A stretch of DNA of 24,867 nt, taken from a virus. Below, piece by piece: positions 11,930 to 20,991 of the stretch. Numbering within the stretch: the first letter of the stretch is position 1; the number at the start of each line of letters is the position of its first letter. The notes under the pieces are model-generated. The model was given only the letters and a program-made list of their open reading frames with translations. It was not told the DNA's origin and ran no database searches. Made by a program: the position numbers and the translations under genes. The DNA lies in IMG/VR virus record IMGVR_UViG_3300030385_002115, positions 1-24,867 of that record, one strand, 5' to 3'.

Positions 11930-12475
11930 ATGATGCATGTATTCAAATTCATATTAGGTCGCTACAAAGGACAAGGCTCTTCAGCGATCGCTTATAATAA
12001 CAAATCAAGCGCAAAAGATGGTGTTAATGGAATCATCGTTGAGGGCATTCAAGATCTTTTTGAGAATCGTATAATTAGGACAGAGGACATGGTGGACATG
12101 TATAATGCTTACTCCATGTCTACAGTTAAAAGATTCTCTGATCGTTTAGCAGGCTCAACAAGATTGATTAATCTACTTAATGGTCTTGCTGGCAATAGTA
12201 TTCTTGAAGTTAGAAGAAGTCCAGAACATCCTGGTTCAAAAGTAAACAAACACATAGAATCGAGAGGAAGAAAATCAAAATTTGATAATAAAAGAATTCT
12301 TCTTAAATCTGAAGAGACTCACAATCCCAGAAGAAAAGGAAGTCATGGATTTACATCTTATCAAATAATTTTAGAAAATCCTGGATTAACTTATGAAAAA
12401 TTTATAGAGTTAGGAGGAAGACGACAAGATCTTGCATGGGATGTTGAGATGAAAAGATTTAAGGTGCAACGATGA
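11930..12475 (+). CDS. Protein of unknown function with a C-terminal module shared with the peptidase-like gene
   Basis: A 181-residue protein whose start (ATG 11930 or the next ATG at 11933) follows TTTAGAAAGGAATAA. Residues 132-179 form a module beginning NPRRKGSHG, with NPG-TYE-FI and ending in GGRRQDLAWD. The same module, identical at 25 of 48 positions, ends the cysteine-peptidase-like protein at 19478-20248. The N-terminal 130 residues are not recognised; residues 90-125 are basic (RRSPEHPG, SRGRKSKF). The next gene overlaps its stop by 4 bases (ATGA). From memory, this module occurs at the C-termini of various phage proteins; its role is unknown. The fold is not evident from sequence alone. 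Confidence 0.75.
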   Translation: MMHVFKFILGRYKGQGSSAIAYNNKSSAKDGVNGIIVEGIQDLFENRIIRTEDMVDMYNAYSMSTVKRFSDRLAGSTRLINLLNGLAGNSILEVRRSPEHPGSKVNKHIESRGRKSKFDNKRILLKSEETHNPRRKGSHGFTSYQIILENPGLTYEKFIELGGRRQDLAWDVEMKRFKVQR

Positions 12476-13431
12476 AAATTTATGGAGCAGGGATGGCAGG
12501 TCTTTTAACTGGACATATGCTGAGGAGATTTAATCCTGAGATATGTGAAGAGAAAGAAAAACTGCCACACAACCATGAAGCATTATTAAGATTTCGCTCT
12601 AATGATGTTTCAACTGCTGCAGGAATCCCTTTCAAAAAGGTGAAGGTGCACAAGGCAATTAAATATGGAAATAAAATAGAAACCATTCCAAATTTATTTT
12701 ATTCAAATTTATATTCTGGCAAAGTCATCGGAGCATATTTGGATCGTTCAATTACTAATCTGGAACCAGTCAATAGATATATTGCACCATCAAATTTTAT
12801 AGATCTTATGGCACAAGGTTTAAACATTGAGTATGGGAAATCATTAAATCATATGAGATGCTTAGAAGCTAATGGTGGAGAAGAAATTCATTTCACTAAA
12901 CATTCAGACCCATTCCCGATAATTTCTACTATACCGATGCCAATTATTATGAAAATTGTAGGATGGAAAAATATACCAGAATTCAAATACAAAACAATTT
13001 GGTCGCAGAAAACTATAATCAAGAAACCAGAGGTGATGATAAATCAGACAATATACTATCCAGATCCCTTTGTAGACTTTTATAGAATTTCAATTACCAA
13101 TAATATTGTTACGACAGAATATATAAAAGAGCCACGCAATTCTGGTCCAGATATTATGGGAGCATTGCGTGATGATTTTGGCATAGAAGCTAAAGAACTT
13201 TCATCAATCATTACATCTGAAATGAAATATGGAAAACTCTTACCAATAGATGAAAAGATAAGGAAGGAATTTATTTTATATTTAACTCAAAAATATAATA
13301 TTTTCTCAATCGGAAGATTTGCTACATGGAGGCAAATTCTACTTGATGATATTGTTAAAGATATTAAGATAGTAGAAGGACTGCTTGGCGACTCTTATAA
13401 AACTAAATTACAATCTGAGAAAGGAGAGTAA
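12472..13431 (+). CDS. FAD/NAD(P)-binding oxidoreductase-like protein
   Basis: A 319-residue protein. The N-terminus MKIYGAGMAGLLTGHMLRRF is a dinucleotide-binding Rossmann motif (GxGxxG at residues 5-10). A second feature typical of the flavin-dependent oxidoreductase family is near the C-terminus: IFSIGRFATWRQ, resembling the segment that closes the FAD-binding domain. The middle contains IISTIPMPIIMKIVGW and TIYYPDPFVDFYR. From memory, similar proteins occur in phage genomes and are annotated as FAD-dependent or amine oxidoreductases. Its substrate is unknown. The gene overlaps the previous one by 4 bases and lies two genes before thyX, itself a flavoenzyme, so a link to nucleotide metabolism is possible but unproven. 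It is shorter than most amine oxidases. Confidence 0.72.
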   Translation: MKIYGAGMAGLLTGHMLRRFNPEICEEKEKLPHNHEALLRFRSNDVSTAAGIPFKKVKVHKAIKYGNKIETIPNLFYSNLYSGKVIGAYLDRSITNLEPVNRYIAPSNFIDLMAQGLNIEYGKSLNHMRCLEANGGEEIHFTKHSDPFPIISTIPMPIIMKIVGWKNIPEFKYKTIWSQKTIIKKPEVMINQTIYYPDPFVDFYRISITNNIVTTEYIKEPRNSGPDIMGALRDDFGIEAKELSSIITSEMKYGKLLPIDEKIRKEFILYLTQKYNIFSIGRFATWRQILLDDIVKDIKIVEGLLGDSYKTKLQSEKGE

Positions 13432-13432
13432 G

Positions 13433-13876
13433 ATGGGACACATGGGACAAATCCTATTAGCACTTATAATTTTCGGAATTATATTTGCTTTGATTAGCTG
13501 CTCTAATCCTTACATAATTGAGATTCCTGAATGGTACACATCTCCTCCAACATTGGAGAAGAATACAATCTCTTCGGGATTTGGCAAATCAAAGCATAAA
13601 CAGATGGCTCTTGATATGGCGATAATGGCAGCAAAAAGATCAGCAGCAGATAGCATCGCTAGTAATATCAAAGGTCGTTCAAAATATTACTTGTCAGAAG
13701 GAACTTCACAAGGAACGGAAATTGCTATGATTGAAACAATTAATATGAGGATTGAGAATTATACAAGACTTAAGACAGAGATAAAAGAAACAATTTATGG
13801 ATATGAAGCATATGTTCTTTTGTCTTTCCCGCAGCAATTCAATAATGAAATATTTTCAGAGATAGAAAGGAATTAA
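13433..13876 (+). CDS. LPP20-like lipoprotein
   Basis: A 147-residue protein. The start at 13433 follows GAGAAAGGAGAGTAAG; an upstream in-frame ATG lies inside the previous gene. The N-terminus is a hydrophobic stretch ending in the lipobox L20-I-S-C23, so signal peptidase II would cleave before C23 and a lipid would be attached. The mature part begins SNPYIIEIPEWYTSPP and continues with SSGFGKSKHKQMALDMAIMAAKRSAADSIA. A PxWY segment followed by a helix rich in Ala is typical of the LPP20 family of bacterial outer-membrane lipoproteins. Phage lipoproteins often block superinfection or serve in lysis; this gene is in a nucleotide-metabolism operon, not with lysis genes. Family assignment is by pattern, not search. 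Confidence 0.75.
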   Translation: MGHMGQILLALIIFGIIFALISCSNPYIIEIPEWYTSPPTLEKNTISSGFGKSKHKQMALDMAIMAAKRSAADSIASNIKGRSKYYLSEGTSQGTEIAMIETINMRIENYTRLKTEIKETIYGYEAYVLLSFPQQFNNEIFSEIERN

Positions 13877-13878
13877 TC

Positions 13879-14559
13879 ATGAAAGTTAAATTAATAAACT
13901 ATACAGATGATGCGAAAAATCTTTTGCTATTCACAAAGAACACAAGATTGATGAATATAGAAAATTCTTATGATGCTATTGCCAAATGGCCAGAGAACAA
14001 AAAACAAGGAGAATTAGATTACATGTTAAAGACTATAAAATCTTCTTGGGAATTTGTTGATTATACTTTTGATATAAGAGATGTGACAAGAGCATTCACC
14101 CATCAGTTTGTAAGGACTCGTAAAGCAAGTTATGCACAACAGTCCCAAAGGACAGTTAAGATGGATCTTTTTAGTTACCATACAACAGATGCAATATTAG
14201 AAAACCCAGAAGCGAAAGAAGTTTATGATGAGACGATGCAACACATTCATGCAGGTTATCAGAAATTGTTAAAAATGGGTATTAATGCAGAAGATGCTCG
14301 TGGTGTTCTGCCAACAAACATTCATACCAATATTGTAGCAAAATTCAATCTTAGAACTTTACATGAGATGGCTAAATCAAGATTGAGTCCAAGAGCACAA
14401 GGTGAATATCAAGAGGTGTTCAAACTTATGGTAAAAGAAGTTGTCGCTGTCCATGGTTGGGCAGAGCCATTTCTAACACCAACAGAATGGGCAGCACCAT
14501 CTATGGCGAAACCACTAAATGAAAGGAAAGAGAGCAATGCAAAGAATAATTCTGTGTGA
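13879..14559 (+). CDS. thyX: Flavin-dependent thymidylate synthase ThyX
   Basis: A 226-residue enzyme that makes dTMP from dUMP using FAD, NADPH and methylene-tetrahydrofolate, securing thymidine for phage DNA. The signature RHR-x7-S-x-R appears as RTR-KASYAQQ-S-Q-R (79-91), with Thr replacing the usual His. The second conserved region, FNLRTLHEMAKSR--SPRAQGEYQ, matches the family's NxREL-HF and AQxEIR segment. The length is usual for ThyX. The start follows AGAAAGGAATTAATC. It lies just after the lipoprotein gene and overlaps the downstream HAD gene by 23 bases. The host must supply folate and flavin. Confidence 0.93.
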   Translation: MKVKLINYTDDAKNLLLFTKNTRLMNIENSYDAIAKWPENKKQGELDYMLKTIKSSWEFVDYTFDIRDVTRAFTHQFVRTRKASYAQQSQRTVKMDLFSYHTTDAILENPEAKEVYDETMQHIHAGYQKLLKMGINAEDARGVLPTNIHTNIVAKFNLRTLHEMAKSRLSPRAQGEYQEVFKLMVKEVVAVHGWAEPFLTPTEWAAPSMAKPLNERKESNAKNNSV

Positions 14560-14977
14560 TATAGATGGCACTCTTGCTAATGTAGTTCACCGAATCCACC
14601 TTGTAACTGGTGAGGAAAAGAATTGGGATGAATTTAATTCTTTATGTCAAAGCGATCGTGTAAAAGAAAATATTGCTAATATCCTAAGACAATTTGTCGG
14701 AGACCATGAAACAACAATAGCAATAGTAACAGCTCGAGAAAACAAGTGGAGAAAAGAAACAGAAGAATGGCTTCATTTGAATGATATACCTTATGATGAT
14801 TTGCATATGAGACCGATTGGTGATAAAAGATCGGATGCTATTATTAAAGAGGAAATATTCAAGAAAAATTATGGCAAGGAAAATGTTTGGTTTGTTCTTG
14901 AAGATCGCTCAAAAGTTGTTAAAATGTGGAGAAAATTAGGATTGACTTGTCTACAAGTAGCAGAAGGAGATTTTTAA
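14537..14977 (+). CDS. HAD-family phosphatase, polynucleotide-kinase-phosphatase type
   Basis: A 146-residue protein. The start ATG at 14537 is preferred over 14519 because GAAAGGAAAGAG lies before it. Motif I is CDIDGTLAN (residues 7-15, nucleophile D8 and D10), motif II IVTAREN, motif III/IV includes MRPIGDKRSDAIIKEEI and FVLEDRSKVV. The DKRSD-x-x-KEE pattern resembles the 3'-phosphatase domain of T4 polynucleotide kinase and phage deoxynucleotidases. No kinase domain is attached. The role could be DNA or RNA end repair or dephosphorylation of nucleotides; being next to thyX favours nucleotide metabolism, while the motif favours end repair. The end overlaps the next ATG by one base. Confidence 0.82.
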   Translation: MQRIILCDIDGTLANVVHRIHLVTGEEKNWDEFNSLCQSDRVKENIANILRQFVGDHETTIAIVTARENKWRKETEEWLHLNDIPYDDLHMRPIGDKRSDAIIKEEIFKKNYGKENVWFVLEDRSKVVKMWRKLGLTCLQVAEGDF

Positions 14978-15189
14978 TGGAACAGCCAAAATTAAGAATC
15001 GTTCATAATAATCTTGAGTTTGAGAGAGTTCCTGTTGCGAGGATATTAGATGCAGTACCAACAATGCTTGACAAATTTGAAAAGTTTTTAGAAGAGGTGC
15101 AAGAACTTGCATTAAAAACAAAAGAACTTGAAAAGAAATTAAAGATTGTTGGTGAGGAGATAGATGATGCCATCAAACCTACAGAATAA
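14977..15189 (+). CDS. Small coiled-coil protein, 70 residues
   Basis: The start at 14977 is preferred because AGAAGGAGATTTTTA precedes it and the stop of the HAD gene overlaps it (TAATG); a longer frame from 14926 lies inside that gene. The residues from about 28 to 65 form a charged helix, LDKFEKFLEEVQELALKTKE and following, likely a coiled coil. No family is recognised. The C-terminus overlaps the next gene by 26 bases. Confidence 0.72.
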   Translation: MEQPKLRIVHNNLEFERVPVARILDAVPTMLDKFEKFLEEVQELALKTKELEKKLKIVGEEIDDAIKPTE

Positions 15190-15454
15190 AATGCAGAATG
15201 CACTTAACACTGCTAAAGAACGAGGTGAACAATATGGACATTCTTATCTTACTCATGGAGAGGTGATGAAAGTATTGTTTCCCGAAGGCATCAATCTGAA
15301 AACAAAAAAAGATTTTAATCGCTATGGAGCATTGAATCTAATTGTTACAAAATTAATTCGATATTGCAATAGCTGGGACAAACCACACCAAGACTCAATT
15401 CACGATCTAGGAGTTTATGCATTTATATTGGAGACAGTTGATGATAGTAATTGA
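15164..15454 (+). CDS. Hypothetical protein, 96 residues, similar to DUF6378-type phage proteins
   Basis: The start ATG at 15164 (or 15167) follows GGTGAGGAGATAG. The protein is predicted all-helical. The pattern HGEVMKVLFP, then NLIVTKLIRYCNSWDKPHQD and SIHDLGVYAFIL, resembles a group of small phage proteins (DUF6378, from memory) related in pattern to all-alpha NTP pyrophosphatases; the conserved D-x-x-x-Y-A-x-x-L end is visible. This is a tentative recognition. Location between a HAD phosphatase and the polymerase block fits a nucleotide-pool role but does not prove it. It overlaps the next gene by 14 bases. Confidence 0.6.
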   Translation: MMPSNLQNKMQNALNTAKERGEQYGHSYLTHGEVMKVLFPEGINLKTKKDFNRYGALNLIVTKLIRYCNSWDKPHQDSIHDLGVYAFILETVDDSN

Positions 15455-15980
15455 TCTTGAGACCACAGGACTACTTATGCCAGAGGCATCAAATATTGAA
15501 GAGCAACCTTATATCATAGAAGTTGGTGCAATCAAATTAGATAAAGATTTAAAGAAGATCGATGAATTAGATTTCCTTGTTAATCCTGGAATTCCATTAA
15601 CACCTTTAATAACAAAGATAACAAAGATAACAGATGGTGATTTAAAAGACAAGCCACCATTTGTAAGTTATTTTGATAAACTTGCTGAATTCTTTTTAGG
15701 AGAGAGCACATTGGTTGCTCACAATTTGCCATTTGATAAAGGAATATTGAAGTACAATTTAGATAGAATTGATAAGACTACGAATTTCCCATGGCCAAAG
15801 AATAACTTATGCACCATAGAAGTTGGTCAGCAGATCTGGGGAAAGAAAAGGAAACTATCAGACCTATATAAAGAAATTACAGGAAAAGAACATAAAGGTG
15901 CCCACCGAGCTCTTGTAGATGTTGAGGCAACAGTTGAAGTTCTTAGATGGTACAAAGAGAATGGACACTTAGATGATTAA
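15441..15980 (+). CDS. DnaQ-like 3'-5' exonuclease (proofreading)
   Basis: A 179-residue protein. The start MIVIDLETTG at 15441 is used, since family members begin at this strand; an upstream in-frame ATG at 15417 is embedded in the previous gene. It carries the DEDDh set: D5 and E7 in IDLETTGL (Exo I), VAHNLPFDKGI with the Exo II aspartate, and HRALVDVEAT with His and Asp (Exo III). Such exonucleases remove misincorporated bases. It overlaps the family C polymerase gene by 8 bases, and the polymerase's own PHP domain looks inactive, so this is very likely the proofreading partner, as epsilon is for alpha in E. coli. Confidence 0.92.
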   Translation: MIVIDLETTGLLMPEASNIEEQPYIIEVGAIKLDKDLKKIDELDFLVNPGIPLTPLITKITKITDGDLKDKPPFVSYFDKLAEFFLGESTLVAHNLPFDKGILKYNLDRIDKTTNFPWPKNNLCTIEVGQQIWGKKRKLSDLYKEITGKEHKGAHRALVDVEATVEVLRWYKENGHLDD

Positions 15981-18756
15981 TCTAAAGATCAGGACAGAGT
16001 ATTCTTTTCGTCGTGCTTATGGAACATTAGAGAAAATAATAGAAACTTGCAATACTGAAAGAATTGCTATAACTGATGATGGAACATGGGGACATGTACC
16101 ACTCTCCAAATTATGCAAAAATCCAATATATGGAGTTGAGATAGCATTTGTTGAAGATGCAAAAGAAAGAAGCAAACAACCAACCAATTATGTAACTTTC
16201 CTTGCTAAAAATAATAGTGGTCTTAAAGAAATTTATAATCTTACTTCTCTGGCTACAACCAAAGAACACTTCTATTATTTCCCAAGATTAGATTACACCC
16301 ATCTTTTTGATATAAGTGAAAATGTTTTCATACTTTCTGGTTCTAATCCAAACTGGGGATTATTACCAAAAAATAAAAATGTATTTGCAGAAATAAATCC
16401 TATGAGTACAAAAAAAGTTTTAGATCTAAAATTCCCATTAGTAGCAACAAGTGATAATTTCTATCCCAGAATTACAGACAGAAAAGTTTATGAAGTTCTT
16501 GTTGGCAGAAATCATCAAGCAAGAACCAAGCCAATGCACATCCTTGATGAGTGGGAATACAAGAGTGCTATTCCATGGGCACCACAGGAAGCTATTGATA
16601 ATACACATTTAATTTCTAAAGATTGCAATGCTTCTCTTACACAAGCAAATATGGTTAAATTTGAGAAAACTAAATCTCTTCTTGAACTGTGTAAAGAAGG
16701 TGCAAAAAAATTGAATATTAATTTATCTGATGTAAAATACAAAGAGAGATTACAATATGAATTAGGACTCATTGATGAGAAGAAATTTGAGGATTATTTT
16801 TTCGTTATTGCAGACATGGTTAATTATGCAAAACAACACATGTTTGTTGGTCCAGCAAGAGGAAGTAGTGCAGGATCTTTAGTCTGTTATTTGTTAGGAA
16901 TTACAGATGTGGATCCATTAAAACATAATTTATTATTTGAAAGGTTTATAGATGTTAACAGAGCTGATTTACCAGACATTGATATTGATTTCCAAGACAA
17001 TCGTAGAGAATTGGTTTTTACTTATTTAAAAGAGAAATATGGATATGACAAAGTTGCAAGACTTGGAACCATAAGTCGTTATAAAGCAAAAAGCACAATT
17101 GGAGAAGTTGCCAAAGCATTGAATATTCCCCAATGGGAAGTCAATGATTTAAAAGGAGCAATAATTGAAAGAAGTGGTGGAGATGCTCGTGCAGCATTTT
17201 GCATTTTAGATACTTTCAATGATCTTGATATTGGTAAGAAGATTCTTAAGAAATATCCGCAAATGAAACTTGCTTCTGATATGGAATTCCATGCAAGACA
17301 TCATGGTGTTCATGCTGCTGCGATAGTTGTTACAGAAAAGCCAATAAGAGATTATTGCTCTTTTAATGAGCAAACAGGAGCACTACAAGTAGATAAATAT
17401 GATGCAGAGAGTTTAAATCTTTTAAAAATAGATGCACTTGGTCTTAGAACTTTATCAGTGTTACAAGATGTTCTTGACCAAGTCAAATGGAGCAGACAGA
17501 AATTGGTTGAATTCCCATTAACTAATGAGAAAGCATTCTCAGTTTTAAATGATGAGAAATATTCTGGAATTTTCCAATTTGAAGGTTATGCTCTGCAATC
17601 TTTAACCAGACAGATGAAAGTTCATAATTTCGAAGACATAGCTGCATTAACAGCATTAGGTCGTCCAGGACCATTGGTTTCAGGAGGAACAACCCAATAT
17701 ATAAGAAGACACACAGGAGCAGCACCAATAGAATATTTGCACCCAATGGTTAAAGGCATAACAGAAATTACACATGGAATTGTTGTTTATCAAGAACAAG
17801 TTATGGAAATTGGTAGACATGTAGGAAAATTATCTTGGGAAGATATATCACAATTGCGTAGAGCGATGAGCAAGTCTTTGGGGCAAGAATTCTTTGATAA
17901 GTATTGGGAGCGATTTAAAATTGGAGCAGAAGAGAATGGCATTGAGGAATCTGAAGCTAGGAGGATATGGGATAAAATCAACACAATGGGATCTTGGGCA
18001 TTCAATAGGTCTCATGCTATTAGTTATGCTCTTCTTTCTTATTGGTGCTGTGTTCTTAAGTCTCATTTTCCTCTGGAGTTTGCTGCTGCTTGTTTGCGCA
18101 ATGTTAGAGATGAAGACCAAGGAATAAGACTCTTAAGAGAACTTGTTAAAGAAGATTTTGAATATAAGCCATTTGATAAATTCCAATCTACAGAAAATTG
18201 GACTGTTAAAGATAATAAATTGATAGGAGGAATAACAAATATAAAAGGCATTGGTGGGAAAGTTGCTGAAGATATAATAAAAAGAAGAGAGCAAGGTATC
18301 CCATTCACACCAAGACAAGAAAAACTCTTGAATGAAGGTGTCACTCCTTATGATGATATTTTTGAATGCGAGAGAAGATTTGGACATATAAAGAAAGAAC
18401 CCCATAAACATGGTATTGCTTCAAAGATAACAGACATTGGGGAGCTGGATGCAGATCGTCCAGGAACTTTTGTATTTTTTGGTAAGTTAACAGAAAAGAA
18501 TTTAAGAGACATGAATGAAACAATCAATTTAGCCAAGAGAGGTGGTCGTAGAGTAGAGACTCACAATCTTTGGCTTAATATTACCTTTGAAGATGACACA
18601 GGACCAATAATAAGCACTATTGATAGATTCAAATATCCGAAACTTGGTAAGCCAGTGGTTGAAGAAGGAAGAGTTGGTGATTGGTATTTAATCAAAGGAA
18701 ATGTGAAGCAAGGATTCCGAAAAGTATATGTGGAAAGATTGCGAAAATTAACATAG
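15973..18756 (+). CDS. dnaE: Family C DNA polymerase (DnaE-like, DNA polymerase III alpha)
   Basis: A 927-residue replicative DNA polymerase. The palm signature PDIDIDF at 334-340 gives D335 and D337; the third aspartate is D487 in KIDALGLRTL, with spacing close to that in E. coli DnaE. The nucleotide-binding segment ARGSSAGSLVCYLLGIT lies about 295-312. Fingers motifs include GRPGPLVSGG and HGIVVYQEQVMEI. A helix-hairpin-helix (NIKGIGGKVAEDI) and an OB-like C-terminal part follow. It is shorter than E. coli DnaE (1160): the PHP domain is reduced and the C-terminal tau-binding end is missing. The N-terminal LKIRTEYSF lacks the HxH metal ligands of active PHP domains. No sliding clamp or clamp loader is in the window. 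Confidence 0.95.
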   Translation: MINLKIRTEYSFRRAYGTLEKIIETCNTERIAITDDGTWGHVPLSKLCKNPIYGVEIAFVEDAKERSKQPTNYVTFLAKNNSGLKEIYNLTSLATTKEHFYYFPRLDYTHLFDISENVFILSGSNPNWGLLPKNKNVFAEINPMSTKKVLDLKFPLVATSDNFYPRITDRKVYEVLVGRNHQARTKPMHILDEWEYKSAIPWAPQEAIDNTHLISKDCNASLTQANMVKFEKTKSLLELCKEGAKKLNINLSDVKYKERLQYELGLIDEKKFEDYFFVIADMVNYAKQHMFVGPARGSSAGSLVCYLLGITDVDPLKHNLLFERFIDVNRADLPDIDIDFQDNRRELVFTYLKEKYGYDKVARLGTISRYKAKSTIGEVAKALNIPQWEVNDLKGAIIERSGGDARAAFCILDTFNDLDIGKKILKKYPQMKLASDMEFHARHHGVHAAAIVVTEKPIRDYCSFNEQTGALQVDKYDAESLNLLKIDALGLRTLSVLQDVLDQVKWSRQKLVEFPLTNEKAFSVLNDEKYSGIFQFEGYALQSLTRQMKVHNFEDIAALTALGRPGPLVSGGTTQYIRRHTGAAPIEYLHPMVKGITEITHGIVVYQEQVMEIGRHVGKLSWEDISQLRRAMSKSLGQEFFDKYWERFKIGAEENGIEESEARRIWDKINTMGSWAFNRSHAISYALLSYWCCVLKSHFPLEFAAACLRNVRDEDQGIRLLRELVKEDFEYKPFDKFQSTENWTVKDNKLIGGITNIKGIGGKVAEDIIKRREQGIPFTPRQEKLLNEGVTPYDDIFECERRFGHIKKEPHKHGIASKITDIGELDADRPGTFVFFGKLTEKNLRDMNETINLAKRGGRRVETHNLWLNITFEDDTGPIISTIDRFKYPKLGKPVVEEGRVGDWYLIKGNVKQGFRKVYVERLRKLT

Positions 18757-18768
18757 TTAAAAAAAGAC

Positions 18769-18791
18769 TTTACTTAACTGCTCAAATAAGA
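18769..18791 (+). repeat. 23-bp direct repeat, copy 1 (promoter-like)
   Basis: This copy begins TTTACTTAACTGCTC and ends CAAATAAGA; it is identical to 19418-19440. It supplies a TTTACT -35 box before the 75-residue gene, but the expected -10 position reads GAGACT, so the -10 is poor or differently spaced (for example within 18794-18806). Confidence 0.85.
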
Positions 18792-18827
18792 GAGACTATT
18801 TATATTAACTTAGAAAGGAATAAAATA

Positions 18828-19055
18828 ATGAAAAATACTACTGTTAATCTAAATGACCTTGAGGTTAAATTTATAATTGATGCTTTTATTAATAAAGGTG
18901 TTAATCCTTATAATGTTAAACCTGAAGTTCTTAAAAGTCTTAATGATAAAAATCTTATTTTGACTTTAAATTCTGAAGCTCCTGAAAAAATGCTCTTTGA
19001 AGTAACTGCTGAAGGTGCTCAAGTTATAACTTATATCCAAAAAAGGTTAAACTAA
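18828..19055 (+). CDS. Hypothetical protein, 75 residues, atypical codon use
   Basis: The start at 18828 follows the shared leader TTAGAAAGGAATAAAA; a longer frame extends back into the polymerase gene and is not favoured. The product is unrecognised, probably alpha/beta, with the C-terminal part FEVTAEGAQVITYIQKRL resembling the end of a winged-helix domain, without firm support. Codon use differs from the neighbours: all five Thr are ACT, all four Ala GCT, all three Pro CCT, whereas the polymerase gene next door prefers A-ending codons. The end overlaps the next start by one base (TAATG). Confidence 0.72.
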   Translation: MKNTTVNLNDLEVKFIIDAFINKGVNPYNVKPEVLKSLNDKNLILTLNSEAPEKMLFEVTAEGAQVITYIQKRLN

Positions 19056-19414
19056 TGAAAAATCTTATATTTATAGTTAGTAATAATAGTATAAAAAATG
19101 AATTAACTGATATTCGTGAAAGTCTTGGGGTGACTACTATCTCTGATGTAGTCCTTGAGTTGTGTAATGATTTTTGGTTAAATCCTTATAATAATGATAC
19201 TTTAATGAGTAATGCTGAAGTTAATTTTAAAACTGTTAATGCTTACCATGGTGGTAAATGGCTTTGTGCTAAAGGTAATAAATCTGATAAGCCGTTTTCT
19301 GTTTATTTGAATAAAAAAGTTTGTAATAATTTTAGTAAAATTTCTAAAAAAGTTGGCTTGAAAACTGGTATGTTATTAAGTTATTTAATTGATAGCTATT
19401 ATTTAGAAAGATAA
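19055..19414 (+). CDS. Possible double ribbon-helix-helix protein, 119 residues
   Basis: A strand-helix-helix pattern occurs twice: residues 3-41 (IFIVSN, then LTDIRESLG and SDVVLELCNDFW) and residues 81-118 (FSVYLNKKV, then FSKISKKVGLKTGMLLSYLI). This is the arrangement of ribbon-helix-helix DNA-binding proteins, which often act as repressors. The prediction rests on pattern only. Like its partner gene, it uses ACT for all six threonines and GCT for all three alanines. The pair lies between two copies of a 23-bp repeat that contains promoter elements, so it may control those promoters. Confidence 0.6.
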   Translation: MKNLIFIVSNNSIKNELTDIRESLGVTTISDVVLELCNDFWLNPYNNDTLMSNAEVNFKTVNAYHGGKWLCAKGNKSDKPFSVYLNKKVCNNFSKISKKVGLKTGMLLSYLIDSYYLER

Positions 19415-19417
19415 TTG

Positions 19418-19446
19418 TTTACTTAACTGCTCAAATAAGATACAAT
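19418..19446 (+). promoter_or_regulatory. Promoter formed on 23-bp direct repeat copy 2
   Basis: TTTACT (19418-19423), a 17-base spacer and TACAAT (19441-19446) form a good sigma70-like promoter. Positions 19418-19440 exactly repeat 18769-18791, 649 bp apart. The shared leader TTAGAAAGGAATAAAA follows (19461-19476) before ATG at 19478. Confidence 0.8.
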
Positions 19447-19477
19447 ATAAGTATAACTATTTAGAAAGGAATAAAAA

Positions 19478-20248
19478 ATGACAAAAAATAATAAACCAGA
19501 AGGATTGGCTCTTCCAGAAGGAGCAAGAAGTGGACCAAATTGTGGAGTGACAGCTATGGCTATTGCTGCCAACATCTCTTTTGATTCTGCTTGGGATCTT
19601 TTGAAAAGAGTCCATAGAGACAGGAGAGGTGGACATCTGTCTAATATCAAAACAAATAATAATATGTTTTCTAAAAAAACTAAATTCACTGGTGCTACTC
19701 ATGATGCAGAAAGAGAACTAGCATACAAACTAATAGGTCTTAAAACCACAAAACTTAATTGGAAAGATAAATATGCAATTGCAAAAAAGAATGGTAATTT
19801 CGTATTGACTCTTAAAAACTTTGTAGAGTGGGGAACAGCAAAAGGCAAAACTTACATTGTTACAACTACTGGCCATGTTCAAGTTGTAAAAGATGACTGG
19901 GTAATTGACCAAGGTGGTGCTAAATCAATTGAGGAATACCATGGTAAAGCAAAACACATCACTAGTGTCCATGAAGTAACTTGTATGAGGAAAGCAGCAA
20001 AAAACCATAAATACGAAAACAAAGTTTTCTACGCAAAATATTTGAATCTGAAGAATCCTAGAAGAGCAGGAACATTGGGATATCACTCTATGGAAATTAT
20101 CCTTAAAAATCCTGGTCGTAATTATGAGTTCTATATTAAACAAGGTGGCAGATCTAATGACTTGGCTTGGGATATTAAAAAAGGTAATGTTGTTGTAAAA
20201 GAAAAAGGCACAGGAAATGGTGGATATTTTAAAAGGGGAGAAATATAA
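19478..20248 (+). CDS. Cysteine-peptidase-like protein with C-terminal NPRR module
   Basis: A 256-residue protein. Residues 18-40 read SGPNCGVTAMAIAA-ISFDSAW, resembling the start of C39/papain-like domains, where Cys (C22) is the nucleophile on a helix. A later GHVQVVKDDWVIDQ (132-145) supplies a candidate His133 and Asp144 in the family's order Cys-His-Asp. Residues 193-240 are a module also present at the end of the 181-residue protein at 11930-12475 (25 of 48 identical). The function could be cleavage of a phage or host protein, but activity is not certain, since such domains can be inactive. It has its own promoter and leader. There is no signal peptide, so it acts inside the cell or in the virion. 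Confidence 0.65.
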   Translation: MTKNNKPEGLALPEGARSGPNCGVTAMAIAANISFDSAWDLLKRVHRDRRGGHLSNIKTNNNMFSKKTKFTGATHDAERELAYKLIGLKTTKLNWKDKYAIAKKNGNFVLTLKNFVEWGTAKGKTYIVTTTGHVQVVKDDWVIDQGGAKSIEEYHGKAKHITSVHEVTCMRKAAKNHKYENKVFYAKYLNLKNPRRAGTLGYHSMEIILKNPGRNYEFYIKQGGRSNDLAWDIKKGNVVVKEKGTGNGGYFKRGEI

Positions 20249-20991
20249 TGGATATTAAATTTGAATGGGATGGAGATATGGAAAAGGACATATTTATTTC
20301 TTGTAAAAGTTTGGTCAATACTAATGGCGGATATTTCAAATCCGCCAACCAAGCAAATTATTATCAGAAGGATTTTGGTAACACTTGGAATAAATGTGAT
20401 GATGGTCCTTTTGAATTTTTAAAAAAGAGCCAATATGAAGGTTGTTATTATTACAGCCCAACTGCAACTCTTAATGCTAGAGAGTGGGGAAGTAATTCCA
20501 GAAGAAAAGGTTGGACTTTCATAGTTGACGAAAATGGCATTGTAGCAATGTATCAATTAGGTTTTGAATATGGTAAAGGATCTGAACGTGGTTGGTCTGG
20601 TGTTGATGAAAGTAAAGTGAAATCACTCTTTACAAGAAAAGACTCCAAATCTAAAATCGCTGTTCTTGAAAAAGGACAGAAAGAGATCCAGAATAAGATA
20701 GATGGATTTAACAATGCAAAAATTAATAGAGAGTATGTTGGTAATGCTGGAGATAAAAAATGTGAGTTTGAAGGAGTTATTAATTTCGTGACATCCTATG
20801 AAACTCCATATGGCATTCAATACATTACAACTTTTAGAAATGAGGATGATAACACAATAAAATACAAAGGAAGACATCTCGGAGAAAGAAATTGTAAAAT
20901 TTCATTAATTGCTAATATTAAAAAACATGAAATATATAAAGATGAAAAGCAAACAATAATAGAAAGACCAAGAAATATAGAATGCAAATAG
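20248..20991 (+). CDS. Hypothetical protein with probable C-terminal OB-fold
   Basis: A 247-residue protein whose start overlaps the previous stop by one base, after GGGGAGAAATATA. The C-terminal 80 residues (about 164-246) have alternating strands: KKCEFEGVINFVTSY, YGIQYITTFRNED, then ISLIANIKKHEIYKDEKQTI. The KKHE-YK-EKQT pattern is typical of OB-fold nucleic-acid-binding domains in phage proteins. The N-terminal part has aromatic-rich segments (YYYSPTATLNAREWGSNSR and GWTFIVDENGIV), not recognised. A short helix separates the two parts (about 137-155). It lies directly before an SNF2-like helicase and nuclease, so a role in recombination or replication is plausible. Confidence 0.65.
   Translation: MDIKFEWDGDMEKDIFISCKSLVNTNGGYFKSANQANYYQKDFGNTWNKCDDGPFEFLKKSQYEGCYYYSPTATLNAREWGSNSRRKGWTFIVDENGIVAMYQLGFEYGKGSERGWSGVDESKVKSLFTRKDSKSKIAVLEKGQKEIQNKIDGFNNAKINREYVGNAGDKKCEFEGVINFVTSYETPYGIQYITTFRNEDDNTIKYKGRHLGERNCKISLIANIKKHEIYKDEKQTIIERPRNIECK

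Follow-up and report, generated by a model that had tools for sequence, protein, structure and literature searches.

A predicted winged-helix module shared by a C39-like cysteine hydrolase candidate and a second phage protein, and clamp-motif tails in relatives of the enzyme

The DNA analyzed here (the window) is the whole of a 24,867-base stretch from an IMG/VR virus record, and it contains two genes whose products end in the same module: one encodes a protein with a C39/papain-like front (hereafter the enzyme) and the other a second carrier of the module (the partner protein; Table 1). Scanning of the window proteins revealed that the neighbors of the two module genes include a primase, a UvrD-like helicase, ThyX and a PNKP-like phosphatase, as well as a DnaQ-like exonuclease, a DnaE-type polymerase III alpha and an SNF2-type helicase. 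In a 55-kb relative, both module proteins are present and their order is conserved, with identities of about 60% and 52% to those of the window, and contigs of the window clade (e.g., G001, G003, G005, G006 and G007) each carried the enzyme and exactly one other module protein. Directly after the partner gene lies a gene for a 319-aa protein (12472–13431; start MKIYGAGMAGLL) that resembles a flavin-dependent oxidoreductase and is conserved in one relative (L001); a search of this protein against Pfam found no real match. The end of the enzyme gene overlaps by one base with a gene for a 247-aa protein without an assigned function (20248–20991), whose C-terminal part matches phrog_2319 and phrog_3628.

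Table 1 Coordinates of the module genes, their predicted features and the neighboring polymerase gene in the window.
Feature	Position	Strand	Basis or remark
Partner protein, 181 aa: N-terminal strand-helix part, YN...FxDR helical region (phrog_4730), basic linker, winged-helix module	11930..12475	+	
RGRKSKF, AT-hook-like, in basic linker (residues 112–118)	12263..12283	+	Read from translation; region aligned
Predicted winged helix of partner protein (residues 122–180)	12293..12469	+	AlphaFold2, pLDDT mostly >90; shared module 12323–12466
DnaE-type DNA polymerase III alpha	15973..18756	+	PF07733, E = 1.3e-70, and synteny; upstream of the C39-like gene in the window clade
Enzyme, 256 aa: C39/papain-like front (residues 1–170) and winged-helix module	19478..20248	+	
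Cys22, predicted nucleophile, first residue of first helix	19541..19543	+	Invariant in 30/30 non-redundant members
His133, predicted catalytic base	19874..19876	+	Invariant in 30/30
Asp144, predicted third catalytic residue	19907..19909	+	Invariant in 30/30
Predicted winged helix of enzyme (residues 182–242)	20021..20203	+	AlphaFold2; hhalign 99.9% to the module of other carriers; shared module 20054–20197

Ungapped comparison of residues 132–179 of the partner protein with residues 193–240 of the enzyme gave 25 identical positions of 48, exactly as an earlier sequence-only reading of this DNA had claimed, and the pair had a Smith–Waterman score of 149, whereas the highest of 2,000 shuffles reached 67. 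Profiles of the module built separately from the C39-type carriers (6 rows) and from the other carriers (43 rows) aligned over 50 columns (hhalign 99.9%, E = 1.7e-34); the module is one true domain family. Positions N1, R3, G9, G31, G32, D36 and D40 were invariant in the 43 rows, and the motif NPRR...YE...GGRxxDLxWD is peculiar to this phage family.

Pattern searches revealed that the module is widespread among viral sequences. In IMG/VR, 74 stretches matched a DNA pattern for GGRxxDLAWD and at least 119 matched a longer and looser one, and in more than 100 IMG/VR contigs the module stands alone, in tandem (as in L111) or fused to several fronts. After near-copies had been merged, at least 59 distinct module proteins were counted, one of which (L102) is a chance match. 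The module was C-terminal in nearly all of the carriers listed, and about ten of these were small proteins with the module, a short front and little else. The fronts, whose tabulation had been proposed as a check, include the C39-like domain, the YN...FxDR region of phrog_4730 and proteins whose weak helix-turn-helix matches fall under the Pfam cut-offs. The module was far commoner without the enzyme than with it. Among the matches listed, 37 of 135 module loci held an ORF of the C39-like kind, including loci in which the enzyme itself bears the module. More distant enzyme relatives (WCGPYxxA...H...D) were seen in L013, L017, L029, L033, L047, L113 and L138, where the module is located on another protein. 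One further module-bearing ORF (L022:170–1321, minus strand) has at its N terminus a pyrimidine-dimer glycosylase domain that resembles T4 endonuclease V (PF03013, E = 4.2e-15; phrog_1183, E = 3e-42). The module may be genuinely fused to a DNA-repair enzyme here, or a single open frame may span two genes; the middle stretch of the ORF is non-coding-like with a plausible internal start within.

The longer pattern matched only once in 84,980 prokaryote genomes, and this match (L102) reads as a ThiC-like protein and was rejected as chance; a profile search of 198 genomes of the same phylum yielded only a weak 18-residue match, in the genome of L102 itself. The module appears confined to phages at the sensitivity of an exact pattern, which would miss diverged cellular relatives. 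It had no relevant match in Pfam or NCBIfam. tblastn searches with the partner protein against INPHARED phages, and with the module against INPHARED phages and PLSDB plasmids, gave no match, the module search being the weaker negative because its query was a hand-edited consensus; a search for related loci with the single sequence P0002 confirmed none.

AlphaFold2 predicted the module, with high confidence in the partner protein, as a strand, three helices and a strand, and the structures predicted for both proteins, a second proposed check, have the winged-helix order of three helices with flanking strands. A second look with VIA was used because Foldseek alone matched nothing to the predicted models at E ≤ 0.001. 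Structural matches were to the winged helices of MetAP2 (Z 7.3), PriA (Z 6.8) and the RNA polymerase III 39-kDa subunit, all within Z 6.5–7.3, a range in which the common arrangement alone may be shared. The roughly 45 residues that precede the module are basic (mean charge +5.6 over the family), whereas the module carries almost no charge (mean +0.9). The module is predicted to be a small winged helix that follows this basic linker. The earlier proposal of a targeting or DNA-binding domain gains from this predicted fold, from the basic linker and from the exchange for a clamp motif in relatives of the enzyme (see below); DNA binding itself is what we infer from them.

The partner protein, which had been called unrecognised, proved to match phrog_4730 (unknown function) over residues 50–129 (E = 6.9e-6). 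It probably binds DNA through the shared module, and it would then be a DNA-binding protein without enzymatic activity that uses the anchor of the enzyme. Since the two co-occur in the window clade, a direct partnership is possible, with the module bringing the enzyme and the partner protein to one place. The module might instead be a winged helix that docks on proteins or peptides and gathers the hydrolase and other phage proteins at a common partner, such as the phage polymerase or host RNA polymerase, a reading that we regard as unlikely and nevertheless as the best of the alternatives. Winged helices can bind proteins, the module lacks a marked charge, and its last helix contains invariant acidic residues (D167 and D171 of the partner protein); moreover, a weaker structural match is the peptide-binding winged helix of TbiB1 with its leader peptide (Z 4.2), and the alternative tail of enzyme relatives, QLxLF, is itself a protein-docking motif. 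However, the best structural matches include PriA, a DNA helicase, the linker before the module is strongly basic, and the occurrence of the module as small basic stand-alone proteins suits a nucleic-acid binder better than a tag.

Analysis of the enzyme front agreed with the previous suggestion of a peptidase-like domain in predicted fold, topology and invariant Cys/His/Asp, and C22, H133 and D144 were found where the sequence-only reading had placed them. In the predicted model, residues 1–170 resembled double-glycine peptidases most closely (6mpz; Z 10.2, rmsd 3.1 over 120 residues), followed by staphopain (Z 9.5), Josephin (Z 9.1) and phytochelatin synthase (Z 8.1), and Cys starts the first helix with His and Asp on neighboring strands, the papain-like order. 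Cys22, Gly23, Tyr126, His133, Asp144 and Gln145 were invariant in 30 non-redundant members of the enzyme family. Papain-like enzymes have a canonical oxyanion Gln about six residues before the Cys; in the window protein this position is occupied by Ala, and only 12 of the 30 members have Gln there. The front matched phrog_3754 (unknown function; E = 1.3e-8), and searches of Pfam (E up to 5, including PF03412) and of PDB sequences matched it to no known peptidase family or solved structure; in INPHARED, only distant relatives were found, in Sphingomonas and Roseobacter phages. Because of the missing sequence match and the non-conserved oxyanion Gln, we call the front C39-like in its predicted fold, and not a member of C39.

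Enzymes of papain-like fold in which Cys/His/Asp are intact mostly cleave peptide or isopeptide bonds. It is improbable, more so than docking, that the front is a papain-fold enzyme whose substrates are modified DNA bases or small molecules rather than proteins (an amidase, acyltransferase or transglutaminase-like enzyme). Phytochelatin synthase, a non-protease relative, is among the matches and the variable oxyanion position would fit; however, the closest folds are peptidases, and among the scanned window proteins no base-modification gene was recognised except ThyX, which makes ordinary thymidylate.

To survey the C termini of enzyme relatives, members were collected with an active-site pattern that is independent of the tail (GxNCGVTA; 66 IMG/VR stretches), which together with the earlier loci gave 28 complete non-redundant members. 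Seven of these end in the module, 13 in an exact C-terminal QL[ATMNS]LF that follows a variable linker, eight in neither, and none in both. No Q[LI]xL[FL] end occurred among 7,002 control ORFs (≥80 aa) of the same loci. QLxLF is an experimentally established bacterial beta sliding-clamp-binding motif (PMC11139829), and transposases mostly carry the clamp motif at the C terminus (PMC4549789). At the C terminus of the window protein, a clamp motif (Q-aliphatic-x-[L/M]-[F/L]) is absent. Internal GLPLF in L097, L167 and L168 and QLTFDF in L113 were considered as clamp motifs and rejected as outside the published consensus. Many clamp-tailed enzymes share a further short conserved motif, [TS]LFPxLF, about 15–20 residues ahead of the QLxLF end; it was seen in the tails of L089, L098, L163, L170, L173, L174, L178 and L188.

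The tail types largely follow phage lineages, and the clamp tail needs two changes on the front-domain tree. Every module-type locus contained a DnaE-type polymerase like that of the window, next to or near the enzyme gene, and none was seen in the clamp-type loci within their stretches, which are mostly 4–13 kb; this association of tail and genome spans a few broad lineages, not many independent events. Tethering is not universal, because 8 of the 28 members have neither tail; both are likewise missing from members found in cultured Sphingomonas and Roseobacter phages. These tailless members, the tracking of lineages and the joining of the module to many different fronts would fit a further explanation, in which module and QLxLF tails alike would be mobile add-ons without a common purpose and the enzyme is an early host-takeover or counter-defense protein whose location on DNA is incidental. 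We consider this very unlikely, however, since both add-ons point to DNA or the replisome and never co-occur, and QLxLF is an exact match to a known motif with zero background. Least probable of all is that the module is a substrate tag whose invariant Gly-Gly (in GGR) is a double-glycine site cut by the enzyme in module proteins such as the partner protein: the nearest folds of the front are double-glycine peptidases, the GG is invariant and enzyme and partner co-occur in the window clade, but the GG is predicted to lie between two helices of a folded domain, is equally invariant where the enzyme family was not detected (16 of 20 records) and has none of the hydrophobic spacing known from double-glycine leaders, and the clamp-tailed relatives carry no module.

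The shared domain, predicted folds, invariant Cys/His/Asp, alternative tails and replication-gene context were all computed, and it is from these that we infer catalysis, DNA binding, clamp binding and a substrate. The reading that we favor, tentatively, is that the enzyme is a C39-like cysteine hydrolase of papain fold, most probably a protease, which is held on DNA through its winged helix and in relatives through the clamp motif. In the simplest account, the enzyme would have to sit on replicating DNA: in some phages it would be tethered through the host sliding clamp by the QLxLF tail, and in phages that bring their own polymerase through the winged helix. There it may cut proteins that obstruct the replication machinery or are part of it, such as proteins that are crosslinked or firmly bound, or host factors of replication or defense; sequence does not tell apart roadblock clearing, inactivation of host replication or defense proteins, and processing of phage proteins. 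More speculatively still, at least two phage lineages may possess a replication-coupled papain-like protease, borne by the clamp or by the winged helix, that clears or disables proteins at the fork as a convergent counterpart of FAM111A and SPRTN. Two phage protein families that lacked an assigned function thus receive a role that can be tested, and the module adds a winged-helix domain, confined to phages, that Pfam and NCBIfam do not contain. If true, the proposal bears on how phages handle protein roadblocks and take over host replication. To our knowledge, no clamp-tethered protease is known in bacteria or phages, and neither a protease with a QLxLF motif nor a clamp-tethered one was found in the open-access papers searched.

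Among known systems, the front of the enzyme is similar to C39/double-glycine peptidases (ComA, PCAT1; PF03412), staphopain and Josephin in predicted fold and Cys-His-Asp order. Unlike C39 peptidases, the window protein is a soluble protein of 256 aa without a Pfam match, oxyanion Gln or ABC transporter fusion, and its family instead carries a winged helix or a clamp motif. The module shares its predicted fold with the winged-helix domains of PriA, the MetAP2 insert and the RNA polymerase III 39-kDa subunit (at the Z values given above), whereas its sequence matches none of the Pfam or NCBIfam models and bears a phage-specific motif. phrog_3754 and phrog_4730 both lack an assigned function, and the stretches matched to them end before the module. 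QLxLF is common to beta-clamp-binding proteins (Pol II, Pol IV and transposases) and 13 of the 28 enzyme relatives, in contrast to the window protein, which lacks it. In eukaryotes, FAM111A clears protein obstacles at forks, for which its protease domain, clamp binding and DNA binding are all needed (PMC7067828). The proposed design would be analogous to that of FAM111A and SPRTN, a protease with a clamp motif and/or a DNA-binding domain; FAM111A is trypsin-like and SPRTN a metalloprotease, folds unrelated to the papain-like phage model, and the analogy would be one of design only.
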